Assembly: GCA_002304345.1 (NCBI GenBank)
Contig: NEUU01000001.1
Location: 434,001 to 498,000, forward strand
Direction: 5' to 3'
DNA length: 64,000 nucleotides
DNA from: Verrucomicrobia bacterium Tous-C9LFEB
GTDB taxonomy: Bacteria > Verrucomicrobiota > Verrucomicrobiia > Methylacidiphilales > UBA1321
The position numbers were made by a program, and so were the translations under genes. The first letter of the stretch is position 1. Each line of letters opens with the position of its first letter. Of the stretch, positions 22,765 through 61,863 are shown one piece after another. The notes beneath the pieces were generated by a model. It made no database searches. It was not told the origin of the DNA and was given only the letters and a program-made list of their open reading frames with translations.

Positions 22765-24468
22765 CTAAGGTATCACCGCATAGCCGTCCACAATAGGAAG
22801 CTCCTGATTCTGCCAGAGAATCTTGGTCACACCGGCGGGAACCTTGATACTCAACGGGCATTCTTTTTGTAGATAGGGATCCAATTTTGGATGCGTCAAC
22901 GCGAACTCGGTCCCTTCGGCACTTTCCTTGATTTTTTCCCATCGGGTATTGGCCCTTAACCAACGCCAGATAAAAAGCTGCCCTTGGGTCGCATACCACG
23001 CTTCCGGCTTCTTTTCGTACCGGGAAAGCAACGCCTCAAAGTAATCCCAGTCTTTGGGTGGTTTGATCTCGTAGGTGTGGCCCCAGAAGTAAAAAACGCC
23101 CCCTTCTTGCGTGTGGGCGGCTTGCCATGAGGCATCCAGCTTTTCAAACGACTGTAGAAAATGGCCATTCGTTGAAAGGGTGAGTGGCTCGGCATACCCA
23201 TTGATGGTCTCCTCTCGAGCAGCGGCGGTGCGGGCGCTCCAATAGCCCGCGCTTCGTGCGCCGCGCAGGACGTAATCTCCCTCGATATCGTAGGCAGGCA
23301 CATAATCGAATGGGTAGGCGAATGAGATCACGGGATGTCCCAATGACTGCTCCAGACTGAGGCGCAACTGCAGGCATTCGTCTTTCCACTGTTGCGGTGA
23401 GATCAACCACCCTCTCGGATGATTTACGGAATGAGAGGCAATTTCCATTCCGAGTTTTTCCATCTCGCCGAGATACTTTTTGCGGACCGGGCTAAATTCG
23501 TTCACGAAAAATGTCCCCTTGTAGCCGTGCTGATTCAAGATCTTGGAGCATTGCATATCCGATTCGACACCATCATCCCAACTCGTCACTACGGCGACTT
23601 TCTTTCCATTGGGTAGTATCGGCAGTATAGGAAGTTCGGCAATCGGCTGAGCCCCCTTCATTATCAATACTCCACGCACCGTTTGATTTTCATCCCGTGC
23701 CGCCATGCCATTTCCCTCGAGTTTAAGGGAAATTTTCGGACTGTAGGGCGTAATGTATTGCAGAATCATGCCGTTTATCTTCACACCCGCATCCCATGAT
23801 AAAGCGCGGGGAGATTCTGAAGTGAAAATTGAGATCTGCCTGGAGAGAGGCGCTTTCACTACGCCCCCTTTATCTCCAGTCACAACCAGAGAACCCGACG
23901 CATTTTTCGGATCTTCAAATTGAGGAATCAACTTCCAGTTGCCGGCAGACAATCCCGCAGGCAATCGTATTTCGTTCGTACCGGAAAATTCCAAATCGAG
24001 CAAAATGGGATCGCGACTGCCCTCGGGGGTTTTGCTCTCACGAAATTGGATTTGCACAATGGGCCGCATAGGTTGCTGGACCATCCTGCTCGGACGAACT
24101 TTGAGAGCACTCACCGGCGCACTGGAGTAGAACCACAGGTGGAGGGAGGAGGCGACCAAAGTCTGATCAATCTCGTTGAGATCAATGGCTGGTTTGTGGC
24201 CTGACTCAAAGTTGATCAGTTGACGTTGCGAATCTCCTGCGAGTGGAGAAAAGGTGACGGTGACCTCCCACCATCCGGGAGCAAGAGGCGCGCTCCAATT
24301 CCACGCATAGCGGCTTTCAAGAGGTGTCATGACGGGAAAGCCTACGGCTTTGCGCCCGTCTGATGTCGTGGTTAGGGTTCCGCCGGTAGCCTGCTCGGCC
24401 GTGAGAATCATTTCTGAATAAGCAGTGAACGGTAGGATAATGAGCAGGGCAAAGAATAAATGCTTCAT
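22765..24468 (-). CDS. Secreted polysaccharide deacetylase (NodB homology domain, CE4)
   Basis: This 567-residue protein has a signal peptide (MKHLFFALLIILPFTAYS). About 270 residues of beta-rich sequence with no clear family follow. A NodB-type domain comes next: SWDDGVESDM gives the Asp pair, SHSVNHPRGW the metal-binding H-x3-H, and FAYPFD the third motif. CE4 enzymes remove N- or O-acetyl groups from chitin, peptidoglycan or xylan. A C-terminal region of about 90 residues (IKVPAGVTKILWQ...) may be a small beta domain. It follows the pseudopilin gene by 67 bases, and both are divergent from the LacI-type regulator, so they are likely controlled with it. Confidence 0.88.
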   Translation of the reverse strand: MKHLFFALLIILPFTAYSEMILTAEQATGGTLTTTSDGRKAVGFPVMTPLESRYAWNWSAPLAPGWWEVTVTFSPLAGDSQRQLINFESGHKPAIDLNEIDQTLVASSLHLWFYSSAPVSALKVRPSRMVQQPMRPIVQIQFRESKTPEGSRDPILLDLEFSGTNEIRLPAGLSAGNWKLIPQFEDPKNASGSLVVTGDKGGVVKAPLSRQISIFTSESPRALSWDAGVKINGMILQYITPYSPKISLKLEGNGMAARDENQTVRGVLIMKGAQPIAELPILPILPNGKKVAVVTSWDDGVESDMQCSKILNQHGYKGTFFVNEFSPVRKKYLGEMEKLGMEIASHSVNHPRGWLISPQQWKDECLQLRLSLEQSLGHPVISFAYPFDYVPAYDIEGDYVLRGARSAGYWSARTAAAREETINGYAEPLTLSTNGHFLQSFEKLDASWQAAHTQEGGVFYFWGHTYEIKPPKDWDYFEALLSRYEKKPEAWYATQGQLFIWRWLRANTRWEKIKESAEGTEFALTHPKLDPYLQKECPLSIKVPAGVTKILWQNQELPIVDGYAVIP

Positions 24469-24535
24469 GACTTTTCGCGTAATAGGAGTGCCGGAACAAC
24501 TGAAGTTAAGCTTGGATCGAGAAAGCGCTCCAAAC

Positions 24536-25219
24536 TTATTGGGTTCCGCTAAAGGACAATGCGACGGGACATGTTGTCAGTGTCTCCACATGACCATCGG
24601 CAAAAAGATAGTTACTCGGCCCCTCTGGGCCGTTGGCCGGGTTCCCATCTGTACGATGATTGGCCGCTGGTCCGGTCGGATTCGGCGGGAATGGTCCGGT
24701 GCCAATGATGGCCGAATTATTTCCCCCAACGCCCTTGTAACTCAGATAGGACAATTCCGCGAGAAGCACCTTCGAGGAAGGGTTATTGACCTGAAAATAA
24801 GTGAGCCCCAATTCCGCATCGGTCCAGGGAGCAATTGTCACGTTGATACCATAACATCCGTAGGCCCCCACCGTACCCGATCGTATCAGAGAAGCGGGAG
24901 TCAGCGGGCAATGCACTACCGGCATGGAATAGCCGATGGGATTCTTCGTGATATCCGAGACAAGATACGGAGAGAGCTTGGTGACCCAGCGAGCGCTTCC
25001 ATTGAGCCCATTGCTCGGAAAACGCTGCTCGTGCTCATTCCGATAGAAGGAGAAGGCTAGCGATAATTGCTGCAGATTATTGACGCATGCCGTCTTCTTT
25101 AAGTTTGCCATGCTGAGACGGATTGCGGGTACGGCCATGCCCGCCAATATTAAAACGATGGTCACCACGACCAGTAGTTCGACCAAAGAAAATCCGGCAG
25201 CCGAGGACCTCTTTCTCAT
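24536..25219 (-). CDS. Type II secretion pseudopilin-like protein with DGHVE tail
   Basis: The 227-residue protein starts with a short basic leader, then GFSLVELLVVVTIVLILAG, the type IV prepilin cleavage and methylation motif (cut before Phe, Glu at +5). The C-terminal NHRTDG...LFADGHVE is the H-x-DG signature of the large planctomycete-verrucomicrobial pseudopilin family. Here an insertion places 19 residues, instead of nine, between His and DG. Such proteins are exported, processed by a prepilin peptidase and perhaps assembled on a pseudopilus. Only the frame from 25219 is plausible; the longer open frame runs antisense through the regulator gene. Confidence 0.88.
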   Translation of the reverse strand: MRKRSSAAGFSLVELLVVVTIVLILAGMAVPAIRLSMANLKKTACVNNLQQLSLAFSFYRNEHEQRFPSNGLNGSARWVTKLSPYLVSDITKNPIGYSMPVVHCPLTPASLIRSGTVGAYGCYGINVTIAPWTDAELGLTYFQVNNPSSKVLLAELSYLSYKGVGGNNSAIIGTGPFPPNPTGPAANHRTDGNPANGPEGPSNYLFADGHVETLTTCPVALSFSGTQ

Positions 25220-25241
25220 CAGTCCACTTTTAAGCGAAGGC

Positions 25242-25255
25242 TTGCATCGGAGCAA
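25242..25255. promoter_or_regulatory. Candidate LacI-family operator
   Basis: TTGCATCGGAGCAA is a 14-base imperfect palindrome centred on CG with matching TTGC/GCAA arms, the usual layout of LacI-family operators. It lies in the 54-base gap between the divergent pseudopilin and LacI-type regulator genes, where it could control both. Confidence 0.4.
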
Positions 25256-25273
25256 TACCGAGATTACGCTCAC

Positions 25274-26470
25274 ATGAGCATGCGTGTCACCCTCAAGCAA
25301 GTGGCCTTGGCCGCCAAGGTGCATCATACGACAGTCTCTCGGGCGTTGCGGGGTCATCACTCCATACCAAAGGAGACTCAGGATCGCGTTCGGCAAATTG
25401 CCGCCAAACTCGGCTATCGACCTGATGCCATGCTTTCCTCCCTTATAGCTTATCGACAGCAAATCCATCGCCCCAAGTATAATGCCACCCTCGCCTGGGT
25501 GACGAATCACCCGACGCGTGAAGGATGGAAGGAACAGGGCAAGATCGCTCCTCCCTATCAAGGTGCCGTCTCGGCGATTTACCGTGACGCCGCAGAAGAA
25601 CGCGCGAATGAGCTGGGTTATAAACTCGAGACCTTTTGGATGCGGGAACCCAATCTGAATCCGAAGCGGCTCTCGAGCATTCTCCATGCGCGGAACATCA
25701 ACGGGCTTCTTCTGGCTCCCCAACCCCGGGCCCGCAGCCACACTCATCTGGAATGGGACCGGTTCTCCGTGGTGGGACTGGGCTTTTCCCTCTACTACCC
25801 CGCTTTCAATATCGTCGGAAATAATCATTTCCACTCCATGGTAACGATCATGCGCGAGTTGAAAGGACGCGGCTACCGTCGCATCGGACTCTGCCTCTTC
25901 TTTGATGTGGACGAACGAGTGGATAATAATTACCGCGCCGTCTATCAATTCCGCACCCAGAGTCTCCCTCCCTCCGAGCGCATTCCGTATTTCTGGTCCC
26001 GCAACATCACCCAATCGGTCGGCAAGGCCTTTGACGCCTGGTTCAAGCGCTTCCAGCCCGATGCCATCATCTCGTGCAATTGGGAGGTCCATCTCTGGCT
26101 CCTGAACCGCGGCATCAAGGTTCCCGAAGATGTCGGATTGGTCCTCACTTCCACGGCACACCCACGAGCGATCTGCTCCGGCATTTACGATCATCCAGAT
26201 CGCGTGGGGCGCATGGCCGTGGATCACTTGGTCGGTATGATCCAACGTGAAGAACGGGGCATTCCCGAACTGCCCTGCCGCCTTGAAGTCGAAGGAAGCT
26301 GGTGCGAAGGCCAAACAGTACGCCCGCGACTGTGGCATGAAGGCAAATCCACGGTGGAGTGGAGTAATCGACAGCAGGCGCTGCGCGATCTCCCCATCCC
26401 CTCCTCCGCCAAGTTCGAACCACATCTCCCCAATGTGAAACAATGGCTGGCGGGATTGCCGCCTCGATAA
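25274..26470 (+). CDS. LacI-family transcriptional regulator
   Basis: The 398-residue protein has an N-terminal HTH (VTLKQVALAAKVHHTTVSRA, the LacI family motif) with a GYRPDAML hinge. The effector domain is a periplasmic-binding-protein-like fold (NGLLLAPQ, FSVVGLGFS, DVGLVLTSTAHP). Such proteins bind sugars and repress nearby catabolic genes. The divergent pseudopilin-deacetylase genes and the downstream genes (PEP-CTERM protein, lyase, transporter, GH30) are the natural targets. The start is the first of two nearby ATG codons (25274 and 25280). The protein is somewhat longer than the typical 330-350 residues, mostly at the C-terminus. Confidence 0.93.
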   Translation: MSMRVTLKQVALAAKVHHTTVSRALRGHHSIPKETQDRVRQIAAKLGYRPDAMLSSLIAYRQQIHRPKYNATLAWVTNHPTREGWKEQGKIAPPYQGAVSAIYRDAAEERANELGYKLETFWMREPNLNPKRLSSILHARNINGLLLAPQPRARSHTHLEWDRFSVVGLGFSLYYPAFNIVGNNHFHSMVTIMRELKGRGYRRIGLCLFFDVDERVDNNYRAVYQFRTQSLPPSERIPYFWSRNITQSVGKAFDAWFKRFQPDAIISCNWEVHLWLLNRGIKVPEDVGLVLTSTAHPRAICSGIYDHPDRVGRMAVDHLVGMIQREERGIPELPCRLEVEGSWCEGQTVRPRLWHEGKSTVEWSNRQQALRDLPIPSSAKFEPHLPNVKQWLAGLPPR

Positions 26471-42600: not shown

Positions 42601-45600
42601 CGCATCCAGAAGGGCCAAGATATGCCCCGAGTTGGTGCTCTGGGTGATAACGCCTTGATGATCGTATCCGACGATACCACCTACATTACCCCATCCGCTC
42701 ACGGTCGAATTATTCACAGCGCCGGAAACAGTGCCCGCTTCTCCATAACCAACGATGCCTCCAATATCGGTCAAGTAACCACTGACGACGCCACTATTCG
42801 TCACGTTCGTCACGGTGCCACCGTCATTGCGTCCAGCGATACCGCCCACCTGGCTCATTCCCGACACCGCGCTATTATTGGAACTGCTGCGGATCGCGCC
42901 TCCATAGTTGGCACCCACGAGACCGCCGAGATTCTGTCCACCGCTTGAGGTAATGATCGCGTAGTTGGAGCCGTTCGTCACCGTGCCGGTGTTGTGCCCG
43001 ACCAAGCCGCCGACGTCTGTCGAATAGGTGGTCGTGACCGTACCACTGACAGAATTAATGCTGCCGCTGATCGTACCGTCGTTCCAACCAGCCACGCCGC
43101 CAATGTAATTCTGGGACGTCGCGGTCAAGGCGCCGTTATTGACGCTATTCACAATCGTGCTGGCGGTCGCATTGTAACCGGCGATGCCGCCGACATAACT
43201 GCCCGTCGCGAGGATGGTGCCACTGTTGCTGCTGCCGGTGATCACTCCCGTCTGAGTGTTCACGCCTGCGATGCCCCCCACATAATGACCGCCGGTGACG
43301 CTACCAGCATTGAAGCTATTGCTCACCGTGCCAAAATTCCGCCCCGTAATGCCGCCGGTATTGGTTCCACCTGTCGCAGTCACCGCCGCGTAATTGGTGC
43401 TGCCGAATATCAAATCTCCCGCTGTATAGGACTGACCATTCCGACCAACCAAACCACCAACATCGTTCGATCCGGTCGTCGTCACAGTCGCGCTTGCCGC
43501 ATTGACGCTGGCAATGATCGATCCGCCTTCGCCGAGACCGACCAAGCCACCGATCAGATCACCACCCGTGGCCGTGACAGCAGCGTAGTTCGTGCTGTTG
43601 GTCAGCGTGTAGGCATTATCACCAATCAAACCACCCACCTGATATGTATTCGTCGTCGTGACTGTACCCGTAACGGCATTGGAGCTTCCCTTTACCGTCC
43701 CGATATTAACACCAACCAGACCGCCAATGTTACTACCATTCTGAGCCGTCAACGCACCCGCGTTCGAACTGTCGAGCACGTAACCAAAGTTCGCTCCCAC
43801 CAATCCACCGACCATGAAAGAATCCGCGATAACGAGATTACCACTGATGGAATTAATGCTGGCGGAAAGCGTGCCGTCGTTCTGGCCGACCAAACCACCG
43901 ATGTAAGAAGCCCCCGCCGAGACACTCAGCGTGCCGTTGTTGACACTATTTAGTACCGACCCGCTACCCGCGTTGTGTCCGACAACTCCGCCGATATAGC
44001 TGCTACCGTTAGCCGTGACTCCGCCTGCGTTGGAACTATTGGAGACAGTGCCGTAGTTATATCCAGCCACGCCTGCAACCCTACTAGAGGCAGTGGCGAT
44101 AACCGCGCCGACATTCACACTATTACGGATCACGCCAGCAGTATCGTTATACCCGACAAGACCACCAAAATTAGAATTCTGGTTGGCGAGGATCGTGCCC
44201 GCGTTGGAGCTCGACGATACCAGCCCGCTATTGGAACCGACGATGCCGCCGAAATTCATAGCACCGGTCGCACCGCTGATCGTGGCAATGTTATAGCTTC
44301 CTGTAATGGTTCCCGTGTTGCCACCCGCGATGCCACCAACGCGCGTACTCCCCGTCACCGATCCACCGGTGTTGGCGACGTTGCTAATCCAACTACTATC
44401 TGCAGTGCCCACAAGAGCCCCGACTAAATCGGAACCAACGATGGTTGCATTGGCGAGAGTGAGGTTCGACACGGTGGAGTTCAGAATCGCCCCGAATAAA
44501 CCGATGCGATCCTCCGAGGGGCGGTTAATGTAAAGTCCGCTAATTGAGTACGTGCCGCCGTTGAATGTGCCCGTGAAAGCACCTGAGACGGTACCGATCG
44601 GAACAAATCCCAAGCCGCCATTCCAGTTTACGGTACTGCTCGCATTGATATTCCCGCCGAGAATATACGAGAACGTGAGGGGCGAATAGGCGACACCTTG
44701 CAGTCCGTATACATCCATCAATACGAAAGGATCACCGACAGCGCCGGTACCACCCGCAGCGCGGAGAAATTGCGCATTGGCCCCGTTGACGCTGAAATGA
44801 GTGAGGGCGGTAAATCCCGGCAAGCTTCCGCTGTTCTGTGCCCAGCGACCTTGGGCGAGCGCGAAGCTATTCACATAAAGAGCCCCCGTCGCGAAAATCG
44901 AAGTTCCCACAGCATTGGAATTCGTGGCGCTCAAAATCAAGCCGCCGTTCGTCGCGGTAATCGTGCCGTCCAGCGTGATGGTGTGTCCCGCCGAAAGCGT
45001 GAGCGTGGTCGCCGCCGACCAATCGAGCGCGGCAGCCGCTTGCAGCGTTAACGTTTCCGTCAGTCCATCGAGAGAGTCCGCTGTCGTGATGGTGAGATTA
45101 CTCAAGGCCAGTTGGGCGTTGACCCAGCCATCATTGAAAACATTGAAGGTGCCACCCGGAGCAGTATTGGCCCCAGCCTGAATGATTACCGAACCCGGAT
45201 CGATGAGGAGCGAGCCGAAAGCACCCTGATCCGCGCTCAAATCGACATGGCCGGAAATCGCCACGTCGCGATAACCGCTCAACTCCACAAATCCCCCATC
45301 GCCACCAAGTTGGCCGCCGCGCGCCGAACCTGTTCCGTTGAAGATCAGCGAGTTGGTCGCGATGATCGCTGCCATACCGCCAGAGCCATTCCCTTCGCCG
45401 TCGACGTCAAATGAGGAACCCACAGCGAACTCGATGTCCTGCGCCTTGACGCTGATGTCGCCACCCTTGCCGTTCGACTTCTTCGCGACAAGACTGCCCG
45501 TATTGAGGATTTTTCCACCACTCGCTGCGAGAATGATCTTTCCGCCCACGTTCGCCACGCCTGTCGCGCGAATGGTTCCGCCGTTATTAATCGCCAACGC

Positions 45601-46332
45601 GTACGCATTTCCTCCCGCCGCTTTCAGCTCTACCTGCGCCGCGCGAATCGCCCCCATGTTATTGACCGCACCATTCGAACCCGCCGAAATAAAGAGCCGT
45701 TCGTCACCCTGCTGCTGCAGCCAGACATCGTGACCGCCAGCCAGTCCGATCGTGCCATTGGGCGCGGTGATGGTTCCTTCGTTGGACACCTGCGAGGCGA
45801 TCATGATCACGTTTCCACCAATGGCCGTGATATTGCCCTTGTTGACGATCGAGGCATTGGAATCGCCCACGAAATGGAGATTCCCACCTCCCATGAACTG
45901 GTTGTTGTCGATGTCGAGAGTGGAAGCCACAAAACCGCCCGTGTTGATCGTCGCTCCTGCGCCGATCAAAATACCGTTGGCATTGATCAGGAAGACCTGA
46001 CCGTTGGACTGCAAGGAACCGTAGATCGCCGAGAGATTGCCGCCCGTCACGCGATTCAGCACCGCGCTGCTCGCGTCGGGTTGCAGGAACTTGGTCAATT
46101 CACCCAGACCAATCGAGAAGCCTTGCCAGTTGATGATCGCGCGCGAACTATTCTGCGTGACAGTCACCGTGCTGCCAGCCGTGTTGATACTCGCACTGCC
46201 ACCCACGACTTCGCCGCCCGTCGGGTTGGCCAGAGCCAGCGAAGGCGCTAAATGCCACGATAAAAAAAGAACGAACAGAATGGCATTGCCCAGTCGTCTG
46301 CAATTAGCTGCATGTCTTTTCTTTACCGGCAT
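33649..46332 (-). CDS. Giant two-partner-secretion-type adhesin with about 130 GLUG-like repeats
   Basis: The encoded protein has 4227 residues. A long signal peptide (about residues 1-36, ending SLALA) precedes a filamentous-haemagglutinin N-terminal secretion domain. Key strings there are NPTGGEVVGGSA, INWQGFSIGLGEL, FLINANGILIG and VSNEGTITAPNG, covering about 40-300. A further FHA-like region leads at about 600 into consecutive VGGIVGxNxGTIxxSxNxGxVxG repeats of about 27 residues. The end (GWDFTPGTGIWGI...YPFFQWQ) is the usual terminal cap, then about 95 non-repeat residues. No beta-barrel, LPxTG or PEP-CTERM anchor is present, and no TpsB transporter gene lies in the window. The start at 46332 is supported by the ribosome site GGGGGAA. 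Such proteins mediate adhesion or contact. Confidence 0.93.
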   Translation of the reverse strand: MPVKKRHAANCRRLGNAILFVLFLSWHLAPSLALANPTGGEVVGGSASINTAGSTVTVTQNSSRAIINWQGFSIGLGELTKFLQPDASSAVLNRVTGGNLSAIYGSLQSNGQVFLINANGILIGAGATINTGGFVASTLDIDNNQFMGGGNLHFVGDSNASIVNKGNITAIGGNVIMIASQVSNEGTITAPNGTIGLAGGHDVWLQQQGDERLFISAGSNGAVNNMGAIRAAQVELKAAGGNAYALAINNGGTIRATGVANVGGKIILAASGGKILNTGSLVAKKSNGKGGDISVKAQDIEFAVGSSFDVDGEGNGSGGMAAIIATNSLIFNGTGSARGGQLGGDGGFVELSGYRDVAISGHVDLSADQGAFGSLLIDPGSVIIQAGANTAPGGTFNVFNDGWVNAQLALSNLTITTADSLDGLTETLTLQAAAALDWSAATTLTLSAGHTITLDGTITATNGGLILSATNSNAVGTSIFATGALYVNSFALAQGRWAQNSGSLPGFTALTHFSVNGANAQFLRAAGGTGAVGDPFVLMDVYGLQGVAYSPLTFSYILGGNINASSTVNWNGGLGFVPIGTVSGAFTGTFNGGTYSISGLYINRPSEDRIGLFGAILNSTVSNLTLANATIVGSDLVGALVGTADSSWISNVANTGGSVTGSTRVGGIAGGNTGTITGSYNIATISGATGAMNFGGIVGSNSGLVSSSSNAGTILANQNSNFGGLVGYNDTAGVIRNSVNVGAVIATASSRVAGVAGYNYGTVSNSSNAGGVTANGSSYIGGVVGHNAGSGSVLNSVNNGTLSVSAGASYIGGLVGQNDGTLSASINSISGNLVIADSFMVGGLVGANFGYVLDSSNAGALTAQNGSNIGGLVGVNIGTVKGSSNAVTGTVTTTNTYQVGGLIGDNAYTLTNSTNYAAVTATGGDLIGGLVGLGEGGSIIASVNAASATVTTTGSNDVGGLVGRNGQSYTAGDLIFGSTNYAAVTATGGTNTGGITGRNFGTVSNSFNAGSVTGGHYVGGIAGVNTQTGVITGSSNSGTILATGSYVGGIAGYNATASTIVNSVNNGALTATSQNYIGGVAGWNDGTISGSINSVSGTVTTTYSTDVGGLVGHNTGTVTNGSNYAIITSSGGQNLGGLVGANYGGAIRSSSNNSAVSGMSQVGGIAGRNDGGTVTNVTNSGVVSGYLTDIGGIVGYGEAGTVSGAVNNSTVSGWGNVGGIVGYDHQGVITQSTNSGHILALLDAFAAYAGGIIGNSWLSTVSFVANTGAVDSNNSAGGIIGGMNATALSNATNTGAVKATGSFAGGIVGYAGSSTISHVTAASGSMVTGSIYVGGIAGYSNTSSIQIASNLAVVTGGTMVGGIVGLAAYDSVVANSTNSGIISGTGNQVGGIVGYNYRSTISGTVNTGTVSGFTNVGGIAGLSANVGIVTASTNSATVLATGSNVGGVAGGSDSLSSVINVANSGAVQIGAGQSNAGGLVGYNRGTLSGGLNTGTVTSTGGQMIGGLVGNNTGFIVSGTNSAGATVTGIGASYVGGLVGTNSGTVSNSANYAAVVATGGLAIGGLIGFNAGTISGLVNSISSTVTTTDSVNVGGLVGINNSTLSNAVNYAAVTATGGNNIGGLVGRNSGTIIDSVNTTSGIVTTTGSFNTGGLIGRNDNMVTNSSNYAAVNGTGSFTGGLVGWNNSTGMITGGSRNAGQVSGIYYVGGVTGTNVGTIDGVANTGTISGTDYVAGIAAKNSGFITNSSNSDKVIGTGSYTGGIVGWNDSSLVSNVLNTGAVSGDTYVGGLIGYLNSGTITNSGVTGSVSGVNAVGGMVGAAVGASIYLTTATVSVTATGTQAGGMVGAATNSSVAQNTYTGTVVGTDLVAGAVGYLAGTTLQYSNVTATVSGNDFVGALAGSMDSSSNLVNNVLTVTVSGSNNVGGFAGLQNGGGIYNNLAVVTVTGATHVGGIAGASLGSISANSVSGSIFGTTYVGGLVGTGTNSSVSNNTSSVTVAGGDYIGGIIGYSDNGNINANTVSGTISGVQNVGGLAGYATSGSINSNVFTGTVTGTSYIGGLIGSYNGSITLGSNAASGTVSGSGSYVGGLIGYNTGGYIGGGYFTGTVSGADNVGGLVGYNDGGQFGGSSASATVSATGNYVGGIVGAGTGTLAGVYATGTVSGANYVGGLIGSATSVFINGSSFSGYVIGTDYIGGLAGANTGGSFSGVNVTATITGSNNVGGAIGTSTNGNIVGGSITATMSGGDSVGGVTGYDTTGSYSSLTVNVDVNGISNIGGAIGKGFGTILNGGVGVAGIVKSTGGDAGGLIGYADTVTISALSTAVAVTGRGGATGGLIGTATNSMVYNVATSGAVDGNINVGGFIGRMQGGSINNASHFTGTVSGNADVGGAVGYASNGAVISNFSNSATILTTNGYQIGGLVGFATGLTITNSYNSGAVIGVDYTGGLIGYNENGTILDSSNSGSVTGNANVGGIVGYNDPSTLSGVINTGTVSGADYVGGLIGQDLQGTVTASRNFGTVIATGNYVGGLIGNAYQSAISVSANLGTVTGSSFVGGVVGQGAEVLISRSTNSGSISGATGVGGIAGTLTASTVVFSTNSGVISGASQAGGIAGFAGVTTISSGYNSGAVTGAGNTGGIVGETWQSRILNSSNSGLVVGTASNTGGIVGYAYISTITNSRNTATVSGVDNVGGLAGYAFATLFFGSTNSERIFGSGLNTGGLVGYANGVSGNATLTSMIINSVNKARVDGGANVGGLVGSSYFGTTVSGSSNISRVVGQSNTGGLVGYQLFASILGSTNSGRVTGNDNTGGIAGYNGSGTISSSLNTGTVSGRNYVGGIVGNSDGSTLLFSANTGAISGNRYVGGLVGAQGSGVIDSSTNSGTVTGSSYIGGIIGDNNGLVTAVINTGSVTGTTYAGGIAGASQTDGSVTNSTNSGLVAGTIYVGGISGRNYGSISSVLNTVTISGSTYVGGIAGGSQGANGLIANSSNAGTILGITEVGGIVGRNLAVINGSTNSGTVTGSYSIGGIAGSNNDTITSSVNIGLVTGATYVGGIAGTNSASGKILFSTNSAAIKGNTYAGGIAGNNLGVIRRSVNEGTVTGSSQIGGIAGSNAGEILRSTNSGIVMGAGRIGGIAGINNGTISGAVNVGAVTGSLYVGGIAGTNSLTGTILNSTNSGMISGSGFSPVITGGIVGYNSGTLSDVFNSGLINGYIAVGGIAGHNEGVVTNATNSGTIFGTLFVGGVIGEVAAGTMSGLVNTGAVTGDDAVGGLIGSISDISWFSDSTNSGIVNGTSNVGGGVGSIYAGTMSGIVNKGAVMGSTYSGGIAGFNDGGWIENNTNRGDVSGIEDTGGIVGYNYSGTVTNSTNRSTVSGIVNTGGIAGHNSGLVSDNQNRGTVNGDTNTGGIVGANDGGSIVRGVNRGTVSGAINIGGIAGVNTNSGTIASSTNHGTITGGSILGGVVGLNYFSTVTDSRNSADILTTTSLVGGIAGQNEGGSVLASRNTGSVSGDTYIGGVAGFNTNGGFIANSTNSGEITVSGDYAGGIVGVNQASTISGVLNTGTISGSQYIGGIAGLSTNSGYILDSTNRGTVSGAQVIGGVVGYNHYSTVSGVVNSGAVMGATYTGGIVGANVNSTIIDSLNRGAVTGSAIVAGVAALNFNSTIVSSTNEGTITGDQNTGGIAGRNSGSTLSGVVNSGRIVGLANVGGIAGQSINGSYILSSTNSGRVRGDSGYSENIGGIVGVLIDSTVSDVLNTRTVSGVYVVGGIVGVATNSTILAVANNAVVRGESGIGGLIGDLENSTLISSLNTANVLGIRSGNTAIGGLVGAAGTNSAIIASGNTGAVSGEGMVGGLVGTTLEAFIITSSSSGTVTGFYLVGGLVGGASYSAIINSTASGAVTGRPSSALIGGLVGLNDSGTISGSIATGAVSGEGAVGGLVGLNMGTISMSAATGSVTGTSYATGGLIGANGGGTVNYSTASGAVNGAYDVGGLIGENYGGILYQVASTGAVTGGDVVGGLLGYNDSASVVSEAYSTGAVNGTSNVGGLVGYNEGSITHAYSTGRVTAITAAGGFAGYNSGIVTGSFFDFQASGTTIGVGLGSAVGITGQPTAYMRDKTIFVNAGWDFTPGTGIWGIEIVGNLAKNNGYPFFQWQNLPLEPMTPTPAIPVVIDFSIFQQFIAQYDFLHRYNQWEIDLTAQNTRNVADHGKMSYSGKRPSILSVIAYGSSYGQ
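34060..44520 (-). repeat. Coding tandem repeat array (GLUG-type units)
   Basis: Roughly 10.5 kb of the adhesin gene consists of imperfect repeats of about 27 codons. The estimate of about 130 units comes from length divided by period. The protein pattern is strong (VGGLVG, STNSGTVTG, GIAG), while the DNA copies differ at many synonymous positions, so the array is old or under protein-level selection rather than freshly duplicated. Long open frames appear on the opposite strand as a by-product. Confidence 0.9.
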
Positions 46333-53273: not shown

Positions 53274-54209
53274 CTAATTCTTCGGTCGCGAAATCCGGAC
53301 GGTGACGACATGCGAACCTCGACGGCCGGGCTCCACCCAATGAAGTCCCGCATGATGTTCTGGGGCATTTGATGGCCCCATCCATGGTTCCACACAATAG
53401 AAAGAGCCATCGAGCGCGGGACACCATGTCACGAAGGCAAACTCGGGATGGGGCACGGATTGCAATCCATGGCTCAAGATAATCTCGACAGCGTCTCTCT
53501 CTGACTCCGCCCGCAAACGGGCTTCATTGGAGCGAAGTCCGTAATGAATGACCGCATTCGCGAGTTGGAGATTATCGAGCGATTCCTCGGTGCGAAAAGG
53601 CGTCAGTGAAAGCAACTTTCCCTGTGTCTTCAGATTAACCACGCAAGCTTTGGCAGCATCGATCCGCACTCGGTGCGCCACTATCCCCGCTCCCTCTATG
53701 AGAGGCATCCGAAAGTAAAAGTGATGGCCGGCACTCCATGGAATGGAACGACTCCCCTGGTTCTCAAGGATGAATTCACACGTGAGTTGATCGCTCGCAA
53801 ATCGATAAGCGACCGAAAAGAGATAATCAAAAGGATAGGATTGATGCGCCGACTCATCGGGACAAAAGGTCGCGACGAAACCGGAATCGTTGACCTGAGT
53901 CAATGCAAAGCGTCCCTGTTTGGCAAGTCCATGCATGGGCATCGGTCGACGCATCCTATCAGGATCGATCCATTGCAAAACCTCGCCACCGACAAAACAT
54001 CGGGCCGGGAAGGGAAACAGAATGGGATTTCCTCCATACGCCTCCGCGATCTGCCCCGAGTCGGTCAAATCCTCCGGCCAATACAACCTCTCGCGTCCCG
54101 CCCATCGCCAACGCATGAGCCGAGCGCCGAGTTCGGGCACCGCTTCAAAAGTGGATTCCCCCACAGTCCAGCGCAGAGCCTTCGCACCGAGATAATCAAA
54201 CGTTTCCAA
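53274..54209 (-). CDS. Aldose 1-epimerase-like mutarotase
   Basis: This 311-residue beta-sandwich protein follows the galactose mutarotase / YeaD-like family: GGNPILFPFPAR near the start, PMHGLAKQ (first catalytic His), WSAGHHFYF (second His), and CVEPWMGPSNAP with a catalytic Glu. The family interconverts alpha and beta anomers of free or phosphorylated hexoses. It is the last gene of a five-gene minus-strand operon starting with GH38 at 60942, consistent with processing sugars released there. No signal peptide is seen. Confidence 0.88.
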   Translation of the reverse strand: METFDYLGAKALRWTVGESTFEAVPELGARLMRWRWAGRERLYWPEDLTDSGQIAEAYGGNPILFPFPARCFVGGEVLQWIDPDRMRRPMPMHGLAKQGRFALTQVNDSGFVATFCPDESAHQSYPFDYLFSVAYRFASDQLTCEFILENQGSRSIPWSAGHHFYFRMPLIEGAGIVAHRVRIDAAKACVVNLKTQGKLLSLTPFRTEESLDNLQLANAVIHYGLRSNEARLRAESERDAVEIILSHGLQSVPHPEFAFVTWCPALDGSFYCVEPWMGPSNAPEHHAGLHWVEPGRRGSHVVTVRISRPKN

Positions 54210-54233: not shown

Positions 54234-54995
54234 TCAATTTTTAGCCGACTTCAATGAGAGGTCGTCGAAGTCAAAAGCCTTCGCAGGACCGCCAATACCG
54301 ATCACAACAACATTGATCGAAGGGAAGCGGCTCTTGCCCCCAAAGGAATGGATGGGCGCTCCGTTTACCAAAATATCCGAGGCATCGTCCACCTGCCGCA
54401 CGGTGACTTTACCAGAAATCTCCGTAGCGCCGGGTGTCTTTCCCAGATCGGAGATGATGATCTCGTACCACGTTTCCTTTTTCCACGTCGCGGTCTTGAT
54501 ATCCTCGAATGCGATTTTACCCCAACTCTCGCCACTGCGTGAAATGCGAATAAAATTGTCCCCGCCGCCATCGCGCGCGCCGCCATCAAAACGTATCGCC
54601 AGACCGTGCGTCCCGTCATCAAATCCGATCAAGACCTGAATGATGGCGTAACTGTCATTCGGCGCCATGACCCGCAATTTCATCCGAAACTCCCCCGCGC
54701 CTCCCTCCTCCAACACTAACGCCTGATCGGCCGGAATCACACGGCGGTATTGCTCAGCGAGTTCGACGCGCGCACCTTGACCCGAGTAGCCCGCGGCCAA
54801 CTCCACTTTCGCGCTACCCTCCTTGCCATAATGAACACTCCACCCCTCTACAGTCTTGAGATCAGCGTGGTCGGTCGCACCGGAAAAATCCTCCTTGAAT
54901 TCAGTCGCCAGTAACGTCGTTGCCATCTGCCATACCGCGATGGCAGTCGCGCCAAGTAAAAATCGTTGGAGACGAAAGTTCGTTTTAGTTTTCAT
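54234..54995 (-). CDS. Secreted LamG/DUF1080-like protein
   Basis: The 253-residue protein has a signal peptide (MKTKTNFRLQRFLLGATAIAV, cut near LLA). The mature part begins TEFKEDFSGATDHADLKTVEGW and runs through strands of a concanavalin-like jelly-roll (YGKEGSAKVELAAGYSGQGARVEL) to FDFDDLSLKS. This pattern is common for secreted proteins that bind or process polysaccharides in Planctomycetes and Verrucomicrobiota. No catalytic residues are recognised. It lies 24 bases before the mutarotase and 46 after the GH-A gene. Similar secreted jelly-rolls occur at 26572 and 61844, but those carry PEP-CTERM tails and this one does not. Confidence 0.75.
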   Translation of the reverse strand: MKTKTNFRLQRFLLGATAIAVWQMATTLLATEFKEDFSGATDHADLKTVEGWSVHYGKEGSAKVELAAGYSGQGARVELAEQYRRVIPADQALVLEEGGAGEFRMKLRVMAPNDSYAIIQVLIGFDDGTHGLAIRFDGGARDGGGDNFIRISRSGESWGKIAFEDIKTATWKKETWYEIIISDLGKTPGATEISGKVTVRQVDDASDILVNGAPIHSFGGKSRFPSINVVVIGIGGPAKAFDFDDLSLKSAKN

Positions 54996-55041: not shown

Positions 55042-57654
55042 TCATCGAGATGGTTCAGACGTTTTCTGATTTGAAGACGACGACGCCGAGCGCTCTTCCA
55101 ACACCCATTGCCGGAAGGCCGACGGATGTTTCCCCTCCCCGATGCCGGGGGTCAACCCAATCCAGCATTTGCGCCGACGCCCATCATTATCATTGGCAAT
55201 GAGGTTCATGCGGAACACCCGTCCACGCGCAACTCCCGCCGCATCGAGCCAACCCCACGGAATCAATATCTCATAACTCGTGATGCCCTCCTCGCGGCGA
55301 CTGCTGGTCGCGATTTCCTTCTGGGATAACGCCTTCGCATTGGGATAAAGTTGATACGCCGCCGTGTCCGAAGTCGTGCGAAATACCCCCAATTCCAGGC
55401 ATTGTTTGTCGTAGCCCGATTCCGCGCGATTACCCATGTCCCATGCGATTTGGAGGGAATCCTTTTGCCAGAAAAGAGAGTCACCCTCGCTGCTTTCTGT
55501 CGCCACATCATCCGTCACCTTTACGGCCAGATACAACCCCTCGTCCGTCCATCCGGTCCAGACCTCCATGGAGAGATCCTTGGGCCCGTTCCAATCGACT
55601 CCCGGATCGCGAGGATACACCGCGTCGCGATTATCCCGAACATGCGATTTGAGTCCAATCACCTCGTCCAGGCGGCCATCTATTTTTACTTGGGAAAGCT
55701 TAACGACGGGCGCCAGATCATACGAGAAAGTGACAGGATGACGCTTTCCGCTGGACTCCTCCATCAGCTCCAGAGCGATGTCTCCCCGGCCCACCAGCGG
55801 TTCACTGAGGGAGAGGCTTACCACGGAGGAACCGGCAACCAGTCGCCGAGATTGAGCGAGTCCCGGATTGTTCTTCGCAAACAGTTTCACCGAGGTCGGT
55901 CCACCGCTGTTGTTGGCCACATCCATATGCAAGTGGGACGCATCCGAAAGATAGGTTCGCTCAATCAAAAGCGTTTCCTTCGCCCGCAAGGGAGTGGATT
56001 GAATAAATTGCTCGAGACGATCCGCATCACCGCCACGCGTGCGGATAAACAACGGCATCGCGCGAATCGCCGGGTCGCCCGTCACCACGCGACCATAACC
56101 ATCATTGATTTCCAGACCTTCAAAACTCTTCGCGGGCGACGCCAGTTGCACTTCGCCGCCCACCGCCTTGGGCTCACTCAACCACAACATGAAAACGCCA
56201 TCTCCCGTGCGATTGTCCACGAACCGCAAGACTTTCCCGAATTCTCCCAAGGCCAAGCGACGCACGAAACGCACATCATCGAGGAATCGTGCGCAGGTGG
56301 CGTAGACCGCTGCGGCTGGAGTGGGATAGTAATTGTCTGGATCGCCCTGAAACATGCCATAGGTAAAGCCCCCCTCATAGCCGGGAAAAGACATCGAGAA
56401 CCAAAACAACTTTTCCACTTCAGGCACGGACCTCGCCATGCCAATCGCCTGCCCCGCATAGGCGGCCCACAGTTCCGTCGCTGGAGAAGACATCAACTCA
56501 TCCTTGTACAATCCCCATCCAAATTCCGTCGGCCAGACACGGGGCTTGAGCCCATGTGTCTTCATCAGGTCTGCCATGCCGGTCAATCGCCCCACCGTAT
56601 TGATCTTGTCAGGAGATTCCGCCTGTGCGCCACCACCGAGATAACGGGTCGACGCGTATGGATGACCACCCATGATATCGATCGAGGCATGATCCTCCGC
56701 CATCACCTCTCCGGCAAAACGCAGATGCGGAAAATCCTCGCCACTCACATCCAATCCGATGACGGGAAGTTCCGGCGCGACGCTTTTGACCGTCTGATAG
56801 GCCGCCTTCAAAAGTGTCGCGTAAATTCGAAACGGAGGAATGTTTCCACGCAGCCCCCGCGCGCATTCGAGATCGGGCTCGTTCAACACTTCAATCGCCG
56901 CAATGCGACCACGGTAGCGTTCCACCACATCCTTCGTGAACTTCTGAAAATACGGCAGAAATTCCGGCTTGGCCAAATCTTCCAGCGAGCTCCATTTCGC
57001 CCACTTGGGCGGCTTTTCCATCAGGATCACCAAGACAATGCTCACGCCATGCCGGCTCAATAACTCCACTCGCGCATCCAGTTTTTCCCACGAGTACGCA
57101 TTTTCAACGGGCGACAGCCAATTCCAAACCGTCATCTGCCGCTCATATTTAATGCCGATCCGCTGACCGGCTTCCGGATCACGATTGAACATGCTGCCGA
57201 AAAAACTCCCCTTATCCACCTGCCCGTAATTGCGGGGTTTCTCCACCACCGCCAAGGCGCTTTGTCGCTTCGCCAGATCCTTTCCGCTTTCGCTGACCGT
57301 TGCCAGCAAGCTCCAATAGCCGCGAGTCACCGTCGGCAATGTCAATGTCTTCTCCTGCTTTCCCGGTCCCTCAAAGGAAAGACTCCACCGTTCGCGGCGA
57401 GCTTTCTCTCCCGGTGCTTGAATCTCCACCGCGAGTTCAACGGTCCGTTTCGGTTCGGTGCGGTTATTGACCGTCACGCGATATTCCACCACCTCACCGA
57501 CCAAGGCCACGCCAGATGACGCATTGGGCACAAGCGTGATCTCCCAATCGGGACGCGACTCCGCCGTCCAGCCGCTACTTCCCATGAGCCAAACAGCGAT
57601 CCAAATCCCGACCAGCCCAAACCAGCCCCACCTCTTTTGCTTCTGAGTCTTCAT
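55042..57654 (-). CDS. Secreted GH-A-clan glycoside hydrolase with CBM9-like C-terminus
   Basis: The 870-residue protein begins with a signal-like segment (WGWFGLVGIWIAVWLMGSS) and a beta-rich region of about 150 residues. A (beta/alpha)8 domain follows with the acid/base in IEVLNEPD (Glu at about 259) and the nucleophile in WPTEFGWG (about 377), the GH-A layout of families such as GH5, GH39 or GH30. A middle beta domain follows. The last 200 residues (VKIDGRLDEVIG...LYLAVKVTDD...DSLQIAWD) resemble CBM9. The exact GH family is uncertain. The ATG at 57654 overlaps the pseudopilin stop by 4 bases (ATGA). Confidence 0.83.
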   Translation of the reverse strand: MKTQKQKRWGWFGLVGIWIAVWLMGSSGWTAESRPDWEITLVPNASSGVALVGEVVEYRVTVNNRTEPKRTVELAVEIQAPGEKARRERWSLSFEGPGKQEKTLTLPTVTRGYWSLLATVSESGKDLAKRQSALAVVEKPRNYGQVDKGSFFGSMFNRDPEAGQRIGIKYERQMTVWNWLSPVENAYSWEKLDARVELLSRHGVSIVLVILMEKPPKWAKWSSLEDLAKPEFLPYFQKFTKDVVERYRGRIAAIEVLNEPDLECARGLRGNIPPFRIYATLLKAAYQTVKSVAPELPVIGLDVSGEDFPHLRFAGEVMAEDHASIDIMGGHPYASTRYLGGGAQAESPDKINTVGRLTGMADLMKTHGLKPRVWPTEFGWGLYKDELMSSPATELWAAYAGQAIGMARSVPEVEKLFWFSMSFPGYEGGFTYGMFQGDPDNYYPTPAAAVYATCARFLDDVRFVRRLALGEFGKVLRFVDNRTGDGVFMLWLSEPKAVGGEVQLASPAKSFEGLEINDGYGRVVTGDPAIRAMPLFIRTRGGDADRLEQFIQSTPLRAKETLLIERTYLSDASHLHMDVANNSGGPTSVKLFAKNNPGLAQSRRLVAGSSVVSLSLSEPLVGRGDIALELMEESSGKRHPVTFSYDLAPVVKLSQVKIDGRLDEVIGLKSHVRDNRDAVYPRDPGVDWNGPKDLSMEVWTGWTDEGLYLAVKVTDDVATESSEGDSLFWQKDSLQIAWDMGNRAESGYDKQCLELGVFRTTSDTAAYQLYPNAKALSQKEIATSSRREEGITSYEILIPWGWLDAAGVARGRVFRMNLIANDNDGRRRKCWIGLTPGIGEGKHPSAFRQWVLEERSASSSSNQKTSEPSR

Positions 57655-58355
57655 TTTGAAAAATGCGCGTCGTCGTTGAGCACCTTTTGATGCCATCGCG
57701 TGTCGCCATAGGCCGCGAGTTCGACATGACCATCGGCCATGAGCACGTTGGCGAGCGCCCGATGTCTGGCGGCAAAACGCGAATCGCGATTCGCCGTCGC
57801 GATCGGATTATCCAGTCCGTAGATAACCGGATAGTCCGCATCCATCACGAGGGGCCAGTCCGACGGATTGCGAATCTTCATCATCATCCGCGGTTCATCC
57901 TGTTGGCGGTGGGCCGCCGGGTACCACAGCATCGGGTCGAGCATGCCGTACCCCACAATCGTGGGTGGCTTGATCAGCAACGCATAGGCCCCGATTTTCT
58001 TCAGGGGACAAATCAGCGCTTTCGATGACGTCAGGTAAGGTCCGCCATCCGAGTTGGGCGTGAGGGACATTAACGAGTGGTACCACCACAGGGTCGTCGT
58101 GGCATCGTAGGCTTTCGGCAACGCCCCGATGTGTTCGGCCTGATAGGTCGTCATCGCAATGCCAATTTGCCGCAGGCTCGACTGACACTGCGCTCCGAGC
58201 GCCACCTGATAAGCACGCCCCGCCGCAGGCAGCAGCAAGCTCACCAACAAGAGGATGATTCCCGCGACGACGGCCAATTCCGCCAGGGAAAATCCCCGCC
58301 GTCCCTTCGCGGAGCCGGACAAGCGAGAAGTCATGGACTGGAATCGGAACCTCAT
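57651..58355 (-). CDS. Type II secretion pseudopilin-like protein with H-x9-DG tail
   Basis: The 234-residue protein has RRGFSLAELAVVAGIILLLVS, the prepilin cleavage motif (cut before Phe, Glu at +5), after an N-terminal leader of about 22 residues. The C-terminus ends with HRALANVLMADGHVEL, exactly H-x9-DG, the signature of the verrucomicrobial/planctomycete pseudopilin family. The start at 58355 has GTGAG a few bases upstream and lies 4 bases after the GH38 stop; an upstream start at 58379 would overlap GH38. The stop codon overlaps the next ATG (ATGA), so it is translated together with the GH-A enzyme. Confidence 0.9.
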   Translation of the reverse strand: MRFRFQSMTSRLSGSAKGRRGFSLAELAVVAGIILLLVSLLLPAAGRAYQVALGAQCQSSLRQIGIAMTTYQAEHIGALPKAYDATTTLWWYHSLMSLTPNSDGGPYLTSSKALICPLKKIGAYALLIKPPTIVGYGMLDPMLWYPAAHRQQDEPRMMMKIRNPSDWPLVMDADYPVIYGLDNPIATANRDSRFAARHRALANVLMADGHVELAAYGDTRWHQKVLNDDAHFSK

Positions 58356-58359
58356 ATTC

Positions 58360-60942
58360 TCACTTTTGGGTGGAATCAAAAATCAGGGTCTTCACTTCGA
58401 AGGGACGACAAGAGTTGGGTTGATGCCGAGCCTCCTCCAAAATATCGGTTTCGGAAACGGTAAATCCTTCTATTTTCGGTATCGGCATCTGACTTTTTCT
58501 TCCAGCGGCCTCGAACGCGCGCAAGACGAGACTCTCGCCCTCTTCCGCTTTCTTGAAGGCCGTGCTCACCAGCGAACTCTCCGTCAGGTCAAACAGTCCC
58601 GCCCGAGCCGGAAGCGAGCCCTTGTTATTGGTCCCACCCACCGCGGTCACCAGCAACGGACGATTCAGCTCCCACCCACAGCGATACGAGGCGCTCTCGG
58701 CAAGGGAATCGTTCCGGGGCCGAATCGTGTAGACAAACCGGTACTTACCCGCCGGAGGCCGGGCGATGGCTTCCAGCGTGTCATCCTCATGCCGTTTCAC
58801 GACGAACGAATGACTGATGCCGCGAATCATATAGGAACGCAGAAGTTTGCCCTCTAGTTCCCACATCCGGTGATCGCACGCAATGGTCAGACCAGTCGAT
58901 TCGTTTCCCACATCGACCCAATGACGACAGAGCCGCAGCTTGTCGCGCTCGGCCAAGGGAATCTCATCTTCCAATTTACCCTGCGAAACTGGAATCGTCC
59001 CGGGGTAAGTCACCTGTCCATAGGGAACGCCATAACGAACCGTCTCTCCCTGCCCGACATAGGGAAACAATTGCTGGAGCCGCATCCAGCGCGGCCCCTG
59101 CCAGTCGATTTCGTTCTCGAGCTGAATTTCCGGATAGTCGTGATAAAGCGTGATCGTTTGCGTCAGCGGCATGTTGCAGATCGAGCCGGAGAGCTTCAAG
59201 CGACACCAGATCTTGTTATTGTCGAGCGTCTCAACCGAGTCGATCAACGCCGGAAACTCGCGCCCGGAGGGAGTCATGTTCGCGATGTAATTGCCGCCGC
59301 GCTCTTCCACTCCCATCACGCGCATTTTCTCCAGCAGGAGGTGGCCGCTCCGGCGATCTTCCACCGAAACATCTCCCGTCACGCGATCCACCGAGAGCCG
59401 GAAGAAACGATTCTCGTAGGTATCCTGCCCTATATTGCGGCGCGGATCGAGCCAGATCGATTCGCCGGCGGATTTCTTTTCAATCATGCCATCGATATGA
59501 ATCTGGCAGGTCTGCGCCTCGTGAATCGGGTTGTGTCCCGGCATGAGATACCAGGTTCTGTAACCAGCCGCCGGAATCTCGTCCACCGGAAAAGCAATCT
59601 CCATCGCGATGGAAACGCCCTCGTAGCGAATCAAGGGCACATAGGGAACCGTCTCGCCGAGATCATTCACCAGCTTCATGCCGGACTTGAAGGCTTCAAC
59701 ATCGTTGGATCGCGGCGTGCCATAAACCACCGCGCGGCCCGTGGCGATTCCCGCTCGCCGCCACGACATCGAGTTAAAGACCACGATCGGGAACTGGTCT
59801 GGCTTCGGCATCGGCACTTGCGCGGCCAATCGCCAGGCCATCCGGTTGATGATGCGTTCGGCTGCGTAACGGCTGTAGCGCTTGAGCTGAAGCTTGTCGC
59901 GATCGGCTCGCTCGCCGCCCTGCGCGTTCTGATTGTGATCCATCCCATCGAGCAGCGCTTTCCACGCGTCCTCGAGCTCCCGCTGGGGATAATCCTTCCA
60001 TCCTTTGAGCAGGCAAAACGCGGAAAGAAATTCGGCCATTTGCAACGCACTCTCGCACGGCAAATCTTCCGGCCACAGATCGGGCCACGAACTCTCGATA
60101 TTCGGCCATGCGGACGGAATTTCGCCCTTCAAAACGGTGAGCCCCTCGACGCCGGAAACGCTCGCAAAATAATGCGACGGCGTAGAGAAAAGCAGCTTCG
60201 CCTCTTTGTCCTGATTCCATTGGCGGACGTTGAGAATGAGATTCTCGTCCGGCGCGTGAAGGTCGCACCCCCAATGCGTCAGATGCGGATAGGAATCGGT
60301 TTGAAACGACTGACTCAGCGCCTTCTCCGTTCCTCCCGCCAGCATCGCGGCATAATCCTGGTGCCAGTTGCCTTCCAAGGCCATGACCGCATACCCCAAG
60401 GGTGTGTAATAGGAGAGAATCTTCGCGCCATCCAATCCCTGCCAAATAAAGAGTGGCGTCTCCACCGGACCGCCTCGCGACATCACCACGCGCTTGATTC
60501 CCGCCAATTGCGCAATTTGCGGGTACTGCGGCGTATAGCCGGGCAGATCCGCGAAATGCGCCGTTTGCGGATCCTTGTCGAAATGTCGACGCACATACCG
60601 TTTGGCATAGAGCGCATTGCGGGCAAGCGTCTCACCGCCCGGCAAATTCTGATAGATGGCGCTCCAGAGCGGGGCCAGTTCCAGACGACCGGAAGCCGCC
60701 AGACGTTTGATCCGCGCCGTTTCGTGCGGATAACATTCCACATAATGCTGGAGAAAATTGACGGTCTCGATCAGATAGGTGAAATCCTCGTACTGCTCCA
60801 ACAAATCCAGCGCACGGGAGATGATGTAATTGCCGCGCGAAAGACATTCCTCCCGCGTCCCGGCCCAGAACAGATCCAGATGCGAAAAGGGAACGACGTG
60901 TACGACGGAAAGCGTGGTGGGAGTGGTATGGCGATGAGTCAT
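58360..60942 (-). CDS. Alpha-mannosidase-like glycoside hydrolase, GH38 family
   Basis: The 860-residue protein is shorter than the GH38 at 2489 and has different motifs. HLDLFW (His21, Asp23) replaces HxHID, and ADLPGYTPQYPQ supplies Asp132, in the position of the catalytic nucleophile; the classical form has WLPDVFGYS. It therefore belongs to a distant GH38 branch, probably still cleaving alpha-mannosyl or a related linkage. No signal peptide is seen, so a cytoplasmic location is likely. It heads the minus-strand operon with the pseudopilin, GH-A hydrolase, LamG-like protein and mutarotase, and is divergent from the IclR-type regulator. Confidence 0.88.
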   Translation of the reverse strand: MTHRHTTPTTLSVVHVVPFSHLDLFWAGTREECLSRGNYIISRALDLLEQYEDFTYLIETVNFLQHYVECYPHETARIKRLAASGRLELAPLWSAIYQNLPGGETLARNALYAKRYVRRHFDKDPQTAHFADLPGYTPQYPQIAQLAGIKRVVMSRGGPVETPLFIWQGLDGAKILSYYTPLGYAVMALEGNWHQDYAAMLAGGTEKALSQSFQTDSYPHLTHWGCDLHAPDENLILNVRQWNQDKEAKLLFSTPSHYFASVSGVEGLTVLKGEIPSAWPNIESSWPDLWPEDLPCESALQMAEFLSAFCLLKGWKDYPQRELEDAWKALLDGMDHNQNAQGGERADRDKLQLKRYSRYAAERIINRMAWRLAAQVPMPKPDQFPIVVFNSMSWRRAGIATGRAVVYGTPRSNDVEAFKSGMKLVNDLGETVPYVPLIRYEGVSIAMEIAFPVDEIPAAGYRTWYLMPGHNPIHEAQTCQIHIDGMIEKKSAGESIWLDPRRNIGQDTYENRFFRLSVDRVTGDVSVEDRRSGHLLLEKMRVMGVEERGGNYIANMTPSGREFPALIDSVETLDNNKIWCRLKLSGSICNMPLTQTITLYHDYPEIQLENEIDWQGPRWMRLQQLFPYVGQGETVRYGVPYGQVTYPGTIPVSQGKLEDEIPLAERDKLRLCRHWVDVGNESTGLTIACDHRMWELEGKLLRSYMIRGISHSFVVKRHEDDTLEAIARPPAGKYRFVYTIRPRNDSLAESASYRCGWELNRPLLVTAVGGTNNKGSLPARAGLFDLTESSLVSTAFKKAEEGESLVLRAFEAAGRKSQMPIPKIEGFTVSETDILEEARHQPNSCRPFEVKTLIFDSTQK

Positions 60943-61062: not shown

Positions 61063-61863
61063 ATGCCGAGCGATTCCTCGATCCAGTCGATTCAACGCGC
61101 CGTGAAAGTGCTTTATGCCGTCGCTGGTGTGGAGGACGGGTGTTCCGTCGCTCAAATCGCGAACAAAACCGGGATGAAACCCAACACGGTTTACAAATTC
61201 ACCCGGACGCTGGAACGCGAACATTTGCTGAGTCGCAAGACCTCGCCTCTCCGTTTTGTTTTGGGTCCCACGGTGCCCGAACTGAAATTGCTCGACGACG
61301 AACGCAAGCTGCTGTCGGTCTCGTCGAAGATTTTGATGCGGACCCACGCGCAGTTTTTGGAAGCGGGTTTCATGCTGCTCGAACTCAACGACACGACCAC
61401 CTATCAGCGGCTCTATGTCGATGGGAACCGGCCCGGAGTGCTCATCCAGCGGCGCGAATACATCGTTCCGCTTTACGAGAAAGCCAGCTCCCTGCTTTTT
61501 CTCGCCTACGCGAATCCCGAGCAGGCGCATAAAATGTACACCGCCCATCCTTTTGAAACCAAGGGCAAGCCGCTCTGGGGCACTCAGGAATGTCTCGATG
61601 AATTCCTGAAAAAGACGCGCGAGCTGGGCTATTGCCAACCCGAGGTCCCGGATTGTGATGGTCCTCATTTTCGTGTTGCCACTCCGGTGTTTTCTCAAGG
61701 GAATGAAGTCGTGGCCGCGATCGGCGGTTGTATCCTGACCAGTTGCCCTCCAGAGGATCGCACCCTCCTCATTCGCCTCTGCGTCGAGGCCGCCAAGGAA
61801 ATTTCGAATCAACTCCGGCAGGCGCTCCCTCAGGAGAAGAAGCTCAAGCCCTTGACCGCTTGA
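61063..61863 (+). CDS. IclR-family transcriptional regulator
   Basis: This 266-residue protein has an N-terminal winged helix (SIQSIQRAVKVLYAV, SVAQIANKTGMKPNTVYKF, LEREHLLSRK) and a C-terminal effector-binding domain with YVDGNRPGVLIQRREYIVP and ISNQLRQAL. The family controls sugar and aromatic acid pathways as activator or repressor. It is divergent from the five-gene GH38 operon, and the palindromes between the two genes fit local control. Its last 20 bases overlap the end of the convergent PEP-CTERM gene. Confidence 0.93.
   Translation: MPSDSSIQSIQRAVKVLYAVAGVEDGCSVAQIANKTGMKPNTVYKFTRTLEREHLLSRKTSPLRFVLGPTVPELKLLDDERKLLSVSSKILMRTHAQFLEAGFMLLELNDTTTYQRLYVDGNRPGVLIQRREYIVPLYEKASSLLFLAYANPEQAHKMYTAHPFETKGKPLWGTQECLDEFLKKTRELGYCQPEVPDCDGPHFRVATPVFSQGNEVVAAIGGCILTSCPPEDRTLLIRLCVEAAKEISNQLRQALPQEKKLKPLTA

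Follow-up and report, generated by a model that had tools for sequence, protein, structure and literature searches.

The window analysed here is a stretch of 64,000 nucleotides from the genome named G000 (4.28 Mb, 36 contigs), and the locus studied lies towards its right end, where the following features were identified:

53274..54209, minus strand: aldose 1-epimerase-like protein, last in the operon (same order at locus L091)
54234..54995, minus strand: secreted protein of ~250 aa, directly downstream of the enzyme gene and third member of the cassette described below
55042..57654, minus strand: secreted GH-A enzyme of 870 aa with a PslG/GH39-like barrel (Glu259, Glu377) and a C-terminal CBM9-like domain, assigned from profiles and motifs
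57651..57654, minus strand: ATGA stop/start overlap of the pilin and enzyme genes
57651..58355, minus strand: H-x9-DG/DUF1559 pseudopilin of 234 aa (alternative ATG at 58334), with a prepilin cleavage site between RRG and FSLAE
58360..60942, minus strand: GH38 alpha-mannosidase-like enzyme, start of the operon and part of its variable accessory set, 4 nt upstream of the pilin gene (kept in the sister genome, G011:C25)
61063..61863, plus strand: IclR-family regulator, divergent (same order at locus L091)

The original prediction had described a pseudopilin gene overlapping the gene of a secreted GH-A/CBM9 enzyme, and both the coordinates and the identities of the two genes were confirmed. The third conserved gene (54234-54995) and the GH38 gene (58360-60942) are additions to that description. 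A signal peptide was not evident in the GH38 protein, and the IclR-family regulator is the probable controller of the operon.

The N-terminus of the pilin carries a prepilin cleavage site between KGRRG and FSLAELAVV, with Glu at position +5, and the sequence after RRG (FSLAELAVVAGIILLLVSLLLP) enters a hydrophobic helix, predicted by AlphaFold at residues 24-75 with low confidence overall. Near the C-terminus, H-RALANVLMA-DG is an exact H-x9-DG motif (HRALANVLMADG). The protein matched Pfam PF07596 (DUF1559) with 34.8 bits, above the cut-off of 23.3, and the TIGR04294 profile with 17.3 bits, just below the cut-off of 19 despite the exact motif, whereas T2SS pseudopilin profiles gave no match. 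It resembles the H-X9-DG/DUF1559 family (PF07596, TIGR04294) of Planctomycetes and Verrucomicrobia in its prepilin N-terminus, its DUF1559 match and its large number of paralogues, and, at the level of the motif itself, in H-x9-DG. Orthologous pilins showed a dN/dS of ~0.11, similar to that of the enzymes (Nei-Gojobori; approximate, since dS is near 1). Purifying selection acts on the cassette pilin.

The enzyme starts with a Sec-type signal peptide (judged by eye), followed by an N-terminal beta domain. Pfam matches to its TIM barrel were weak (GH42 marginally above the cut-off, GH10 below it), and the CBM9_1 match was clear (6.7e-11). The best solved relative was PslG (GH39), with E = 1.2e-7 over residues 154-423. 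Both share the GH-A barrel and two catalytic glutamates, placed in the cassette enzyme by motif only at NEP (Glu259) and TEFGW (Glu377) and invariant in three aligned copies; unlike PslG, the cassette enzyme has a beta domain at its N-terminus and a CBM9-like domain at its C-terminus. The small secreted protein (54234-54995) had no Pfam match and, from the style of its sequence, is probably a carbohydrate-binding beta-sandwich. AlphaFold models of the pilin and the enzyme, built from three-sequence alignments, were poor (pLDDT 38 and 46, respectively), so that no interface or fold was visible in them.

On the minus strand, the stop codon of the pilin gene (TGA, 57653-57651) and the start codon of the enzyme gene (ATG, 57654-57652) combine into ATGA. 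The original prediction took this overlap to mean that the two proteins are made in fixed proportion, which goes too far, because overlapping stop and start codons can produce coupling at most, and such overlaps are common in this genome. A 4-nt overlap was the commonest spacing in background regions (16 of 207 same-strand gene pairs), and it was therefore rejected as special in itself. The missing Shine-Dalgarno-like sequence at the junction was likewise rejected as a sign of coupling, since just 74 of the 305 background genes carry such a sequence.

One important question is whether the pairing is conserved. With about 80 prepilin genes in the genome, a single pilin-enzyme adjacency would mean little. 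The closest relatives of the cassette pilin were two proteins of G000 (53-55% identical) and three of the sister genome G011 (85, 55 and 42%), after which the next match dropped to 53 bits. All members of this subfamily lie in a cassette (3/3 in G000 and 3/3 in G011), and a seventh pilin-enzyme pair was located in G010. Pilin, enzyme and small secreted protein occur together in all seven clusters, and the nine homologues of the small protein are all in cassettes, with none elsewhere in the gene-called sequence scanned (over 1 Mb). Five copies have the order pilin-enzyme-small protein, each with ATGA at the pilin/enzyme junction, whereas the fourth cassette type (G011:C43, G010:C120) has the order pilin-small protein-enzyme and lacks the overlap. 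Around this constant core the regulators and accessory enzymes differ: IclR, GH38 and epimerase in copy 1 (the window); LacI and GH130 in copy 2 (C31); LacI, a PEP-CTERM protein and a SASA esterase in copy 3 (C1:254 kb); and a LacI-type regulator, heparinase II/III and alpha-L-rhamnosidase in copy 4. Distances across copies were correlated (r = 0.88 for pilin and enzyme, 0.89 for pilin and small protein), which reflects joint inheritance and not binding, because the copies share ancestry. Comparative genomics shows that a single conserved cassette, made up of the pseudopilin, the GH-A/CBM9 enzyme and the small secreted protein, lies within a regulated sugar-utilisation operon. Hence, of the idea that the pseudopilin is dedicated to one enzyme, the specific and conserved pairing stands; exclusiveness does not, the third secreted protein being equally constant.

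The same facts bear on another explanation, namely that the three proteins share an operon for growth on one glycan and never touch. The frequency of the 4-nt overlap in this genome and the broad tie of pilins to sugar-regulated clusters (see below) would suit it. We nevertheless consider it unlikely, given that the same pilin subfamily, enzyme and small protein recur in four cassette types despite different regulators and accessory enzymes, with a fixed order in the close copies.

In order to place the pairing outside the genus, 19 distant homologues of the enzyme (25-33% identical, from several families of the phylum) were examined. In 16 of them an intact prepilin gene adjoined the enzyme gene or lay one small gene away: 12 same-strand adjacent prepilins were detected by script and four more with longer flanks (L136-L139), including L139, where one small secreted gene separates prepilin and enzyme as in copy 4. 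At L106 the upstream prepilin is frameshifted and split over two frames (about 12400-13200), which is either a pseudogene or an assembly error, and at L094 and L095 no prepilin was found beside the enzyme homologue. Prepilin numbers in the genomes of this distant set range from 43 to at least 150, so the control comparison matters: other long genes of the same loci had an adjacent prepilin in 6 of 27 cases (Fisher p = 6e-5 against 16/19, an optimistic value because some of the 19 are close kin, as in G013/G081). The pilin-enzyme pairing exceeds chance. The outcome named in the original prediction as telling against it, no conservation beyond chance, is contradicted by the six subfamily pilins, all in cassettes, and by these 16 distant loci. 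A search of 388 genomes of the phylum found the cassette pilin subfamily only in the window's own genome, and the adjacency beyond the genus therefore involves other H-x9-DG-type prepilins. As judged from gene neighbourhoods, it is the type of arrangement that is conserved there, not the exact pilin of the window.

Prepilins are tied to sugar regulation throughout G000. For 47 of 82, a sugar-sensing LacI/GntR regulator is encoded no more than 6 kb away, against 13.9 expected and a maximum of 46 in 2000 rotations. Among the 25 commonest Pfam families listed for direct prepilin neighbours, GH42, GH113, GH5, CBM9, LacI/GntR regulators and PEP-CTERM recurred; none of these recurred among the 25 commonest families listed for 75 randomly chosen G000 genes. 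The arrangement had been called unusual, a term that does not hold for about 80 such genes lying mostly in sugar-regulated clusters; the pairing in the window is a clear example of something widespread rather than an exception. As separate observations, the sugar-binding LacI/GntR-type regulators (75) are almost equal in number to the prepilins, and PEP-CTERM proteins make up 8 of 45 upstream neighbours of prepilins. The window itself holds a second pseudopilin unit (22765-26470):

22765..24468, minus strand: secreted polysaccharide deacetylase, its gene following that of the second pseudopilin after a 67-nt gap
24536..25219, minus strand: second pseudopilin (PF07963; DUF1559 just below the cut-off; H-x9-DG-like, with a DGH C-terminal motif)
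25274..26470, plus strand: LacI regulator, oriented divergently to the second pseudopilin gene

The regulator link suggests that pseudopilins generally are components of polysaccharide utilisation clusters, each specific for a substrate or a cargo. The joint occurrence of the cassette genes in related genomes suggests, too, that the dozens of pilus-like proteins of these bacteria each belong to a particular sugar-degradation cluster as a dedicated part. The regulator link would also fit a close rival to the reading we favour below, in which a glycan-binding minor pilin on a type IV filament, one for each sugar cluster, captures the polysaccharide cut by the cassette enzymes, and the retracting filament draws it to the cell. 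The C-terminal domains of the pilins vary from cluster to cluster, and between distant cassette types the pilin is better conserved than the enzyme (about 39% against 25%), which need not follow from enzyme recognition. In Verruconatronum alginivorum a PulG-like pseudopilin, one with 67 homologues in the genome, lies in an alginate-utilisation cluster, and a pseudopilin was over-expressed on alginate (PMC13274419). However, no known carbohydrate-binding fold was recognised in the poor AlphaFold model, and a partner protein would explain at least equally well why the pilin stays with a single enzyme subfamily when the remaining enzymes differ. We regard glycan capture as somewhat unlikely.

Machinery that could use an additional pilin is present. 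G000 has a T2SS operon (C3:96-109 kb) encoding GspE, F, G, H-K-like, L-like and D proteins, and also a separate PilB/PilC-like locus and a Tad-like locus. The cassette pilin is encoded outside the gsp operon, which has its own pseudopilins, and would therefore be an extra subunit and not a core one. The reading we favour, tentatively and as somewhat short of an even chance, is that the T2SS/T4P machinery uses it as a minor subunit specific to the cluster, for export or surface placement of the enzyme. We infer by analogy both the machine that uses the pilin and the identity of its partner, be it the enzyme, the small protein or a glycan. A dedicated adaptor or carrier is preferred because of two precedents: the minor pseudopilins that form the T2SS tip are considered critical for binding substrates (PMC6211770), and the minor pilin TcpB binds TcpF, a secreted protein of the same operon (PMC9565799).

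Under this mechanism the enzyme and the small protein would reach the periplasm by Sec, and the pseudopilin, once cleaved by prepilin peptidase, would enter filaments of the T2SS or type IV pilus machinery, probably at their tip, as a minor subunit specific to the cluster. Its variable C-terminal domain would recognise the secreted protein or proteins of the cassette, which would then be taken across the outer membrane or held at it. One core machine with its own GspG-K would be served by about 70 interchangeable adaptors per cell, each switched on together with its own enzymes by the local sugar-sensing regulator. The one-to-one pilin and enzyme subfamilies, the constant core, the ATGA junction kept in 5/5 close copies, the prepilin adjacency in other families and the presence of the machinery argue for such an adaptor, as do the low dN/dS of the pilin, its distance correlation with the enzyme and the pseudopilins of V. 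alginivorum (PMC13274419). On the other side, the fourth cassette type has its small-protein gene between those of pilin and enzyme, so that either could be the direct partner, and many other pilins of the genome adjoin only a regulator or a PEP-CTERM protein. The T2SS of studied bacteria pass many substrates through one tip complex, which also counts against it.

Permanent anchoring of the enzyme or the small protein on a surface filament, instead of export, was considered as well. The small-protein copy at L069:5139-5957 (G000:C31) has a PEP-CTERM-like tail (VPEPGALSLIGLTLLSLPLLRRR), a hint that the cell surface is the destination of one cassette member or more; the tail, however, is another route to that surface, the enzyme has no anchor of its own, and nothing points to its staying on the cell. 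We hold this to be very improbable. The neighbouring paralogue at L069 lacks the tail, so that sorted and free forms of the small protein lie side by side.

Compared with known systems, the cassette pilin is like the T2SS minor pseudopilins (GspH-K; XcpU-X tip complex) in being a prepilin-type protein tied to the export of folded, Sec-translocated enzymes, a putative tie in its case, and differs from them in lying outside the T2SS operon, in belonging to DUF1559 and in being encoded beside its presumed substrate. With TcpB-TcpF of the type IVb pili it shares the grouping of a minor pilin and a secreted partner in one operon, the binding being putative in the cassette; there is only one TcpB-TcpF system, and its secreted partner is no enzyme, whereas here dozens of pilins are spread across sugar clusters. 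Large sets of DUF1559 paralogues are already known, with 68 of the H-X9-DG/DUF1559 family in Planctopirus limnophila (PMC10632474). No function or constant partner is given for the pseudopilins of that study or of V. alginivorum (PMC13274419), whereas here one subfamily is tied to an enzyme/small-protein cassette. Neither a constant pseudopilin-enzyme-small protein cassette nor a genome-wide link to sugar regulators was found in the open-access literature searched.

Genomes of the superphylum each encode tens to hundreds of pseudopilins with no assigned function, and the cassette supplies one such protein with a constant partner and a role that can be tested. It is possible, and put forward with still more reserve than the role of the single pilin, that Verrucomicrobia use a plug-in form of secretion or capture, in which the T2SS/T4P core would be re-tooled for each polysaccharide by an interchangeable, cluster-encoded pseudopilin with its cognate secreted enzyme. 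If true, this would do for Verrucomicrobia what SusC/SusD pairs do for Bacteroidetes.

Two further observations were made. Small operons separate from the gsp operon (L079:13143-18602, L068:1518-5905 and L038:4549-9681) encode a very large GspK-like protein (850-1080 aa) together with several that resemble pseudopilins. Within the window, a very long open frame of 4185 aa on the minus strand (33649-46206) may encode a large surface protein.
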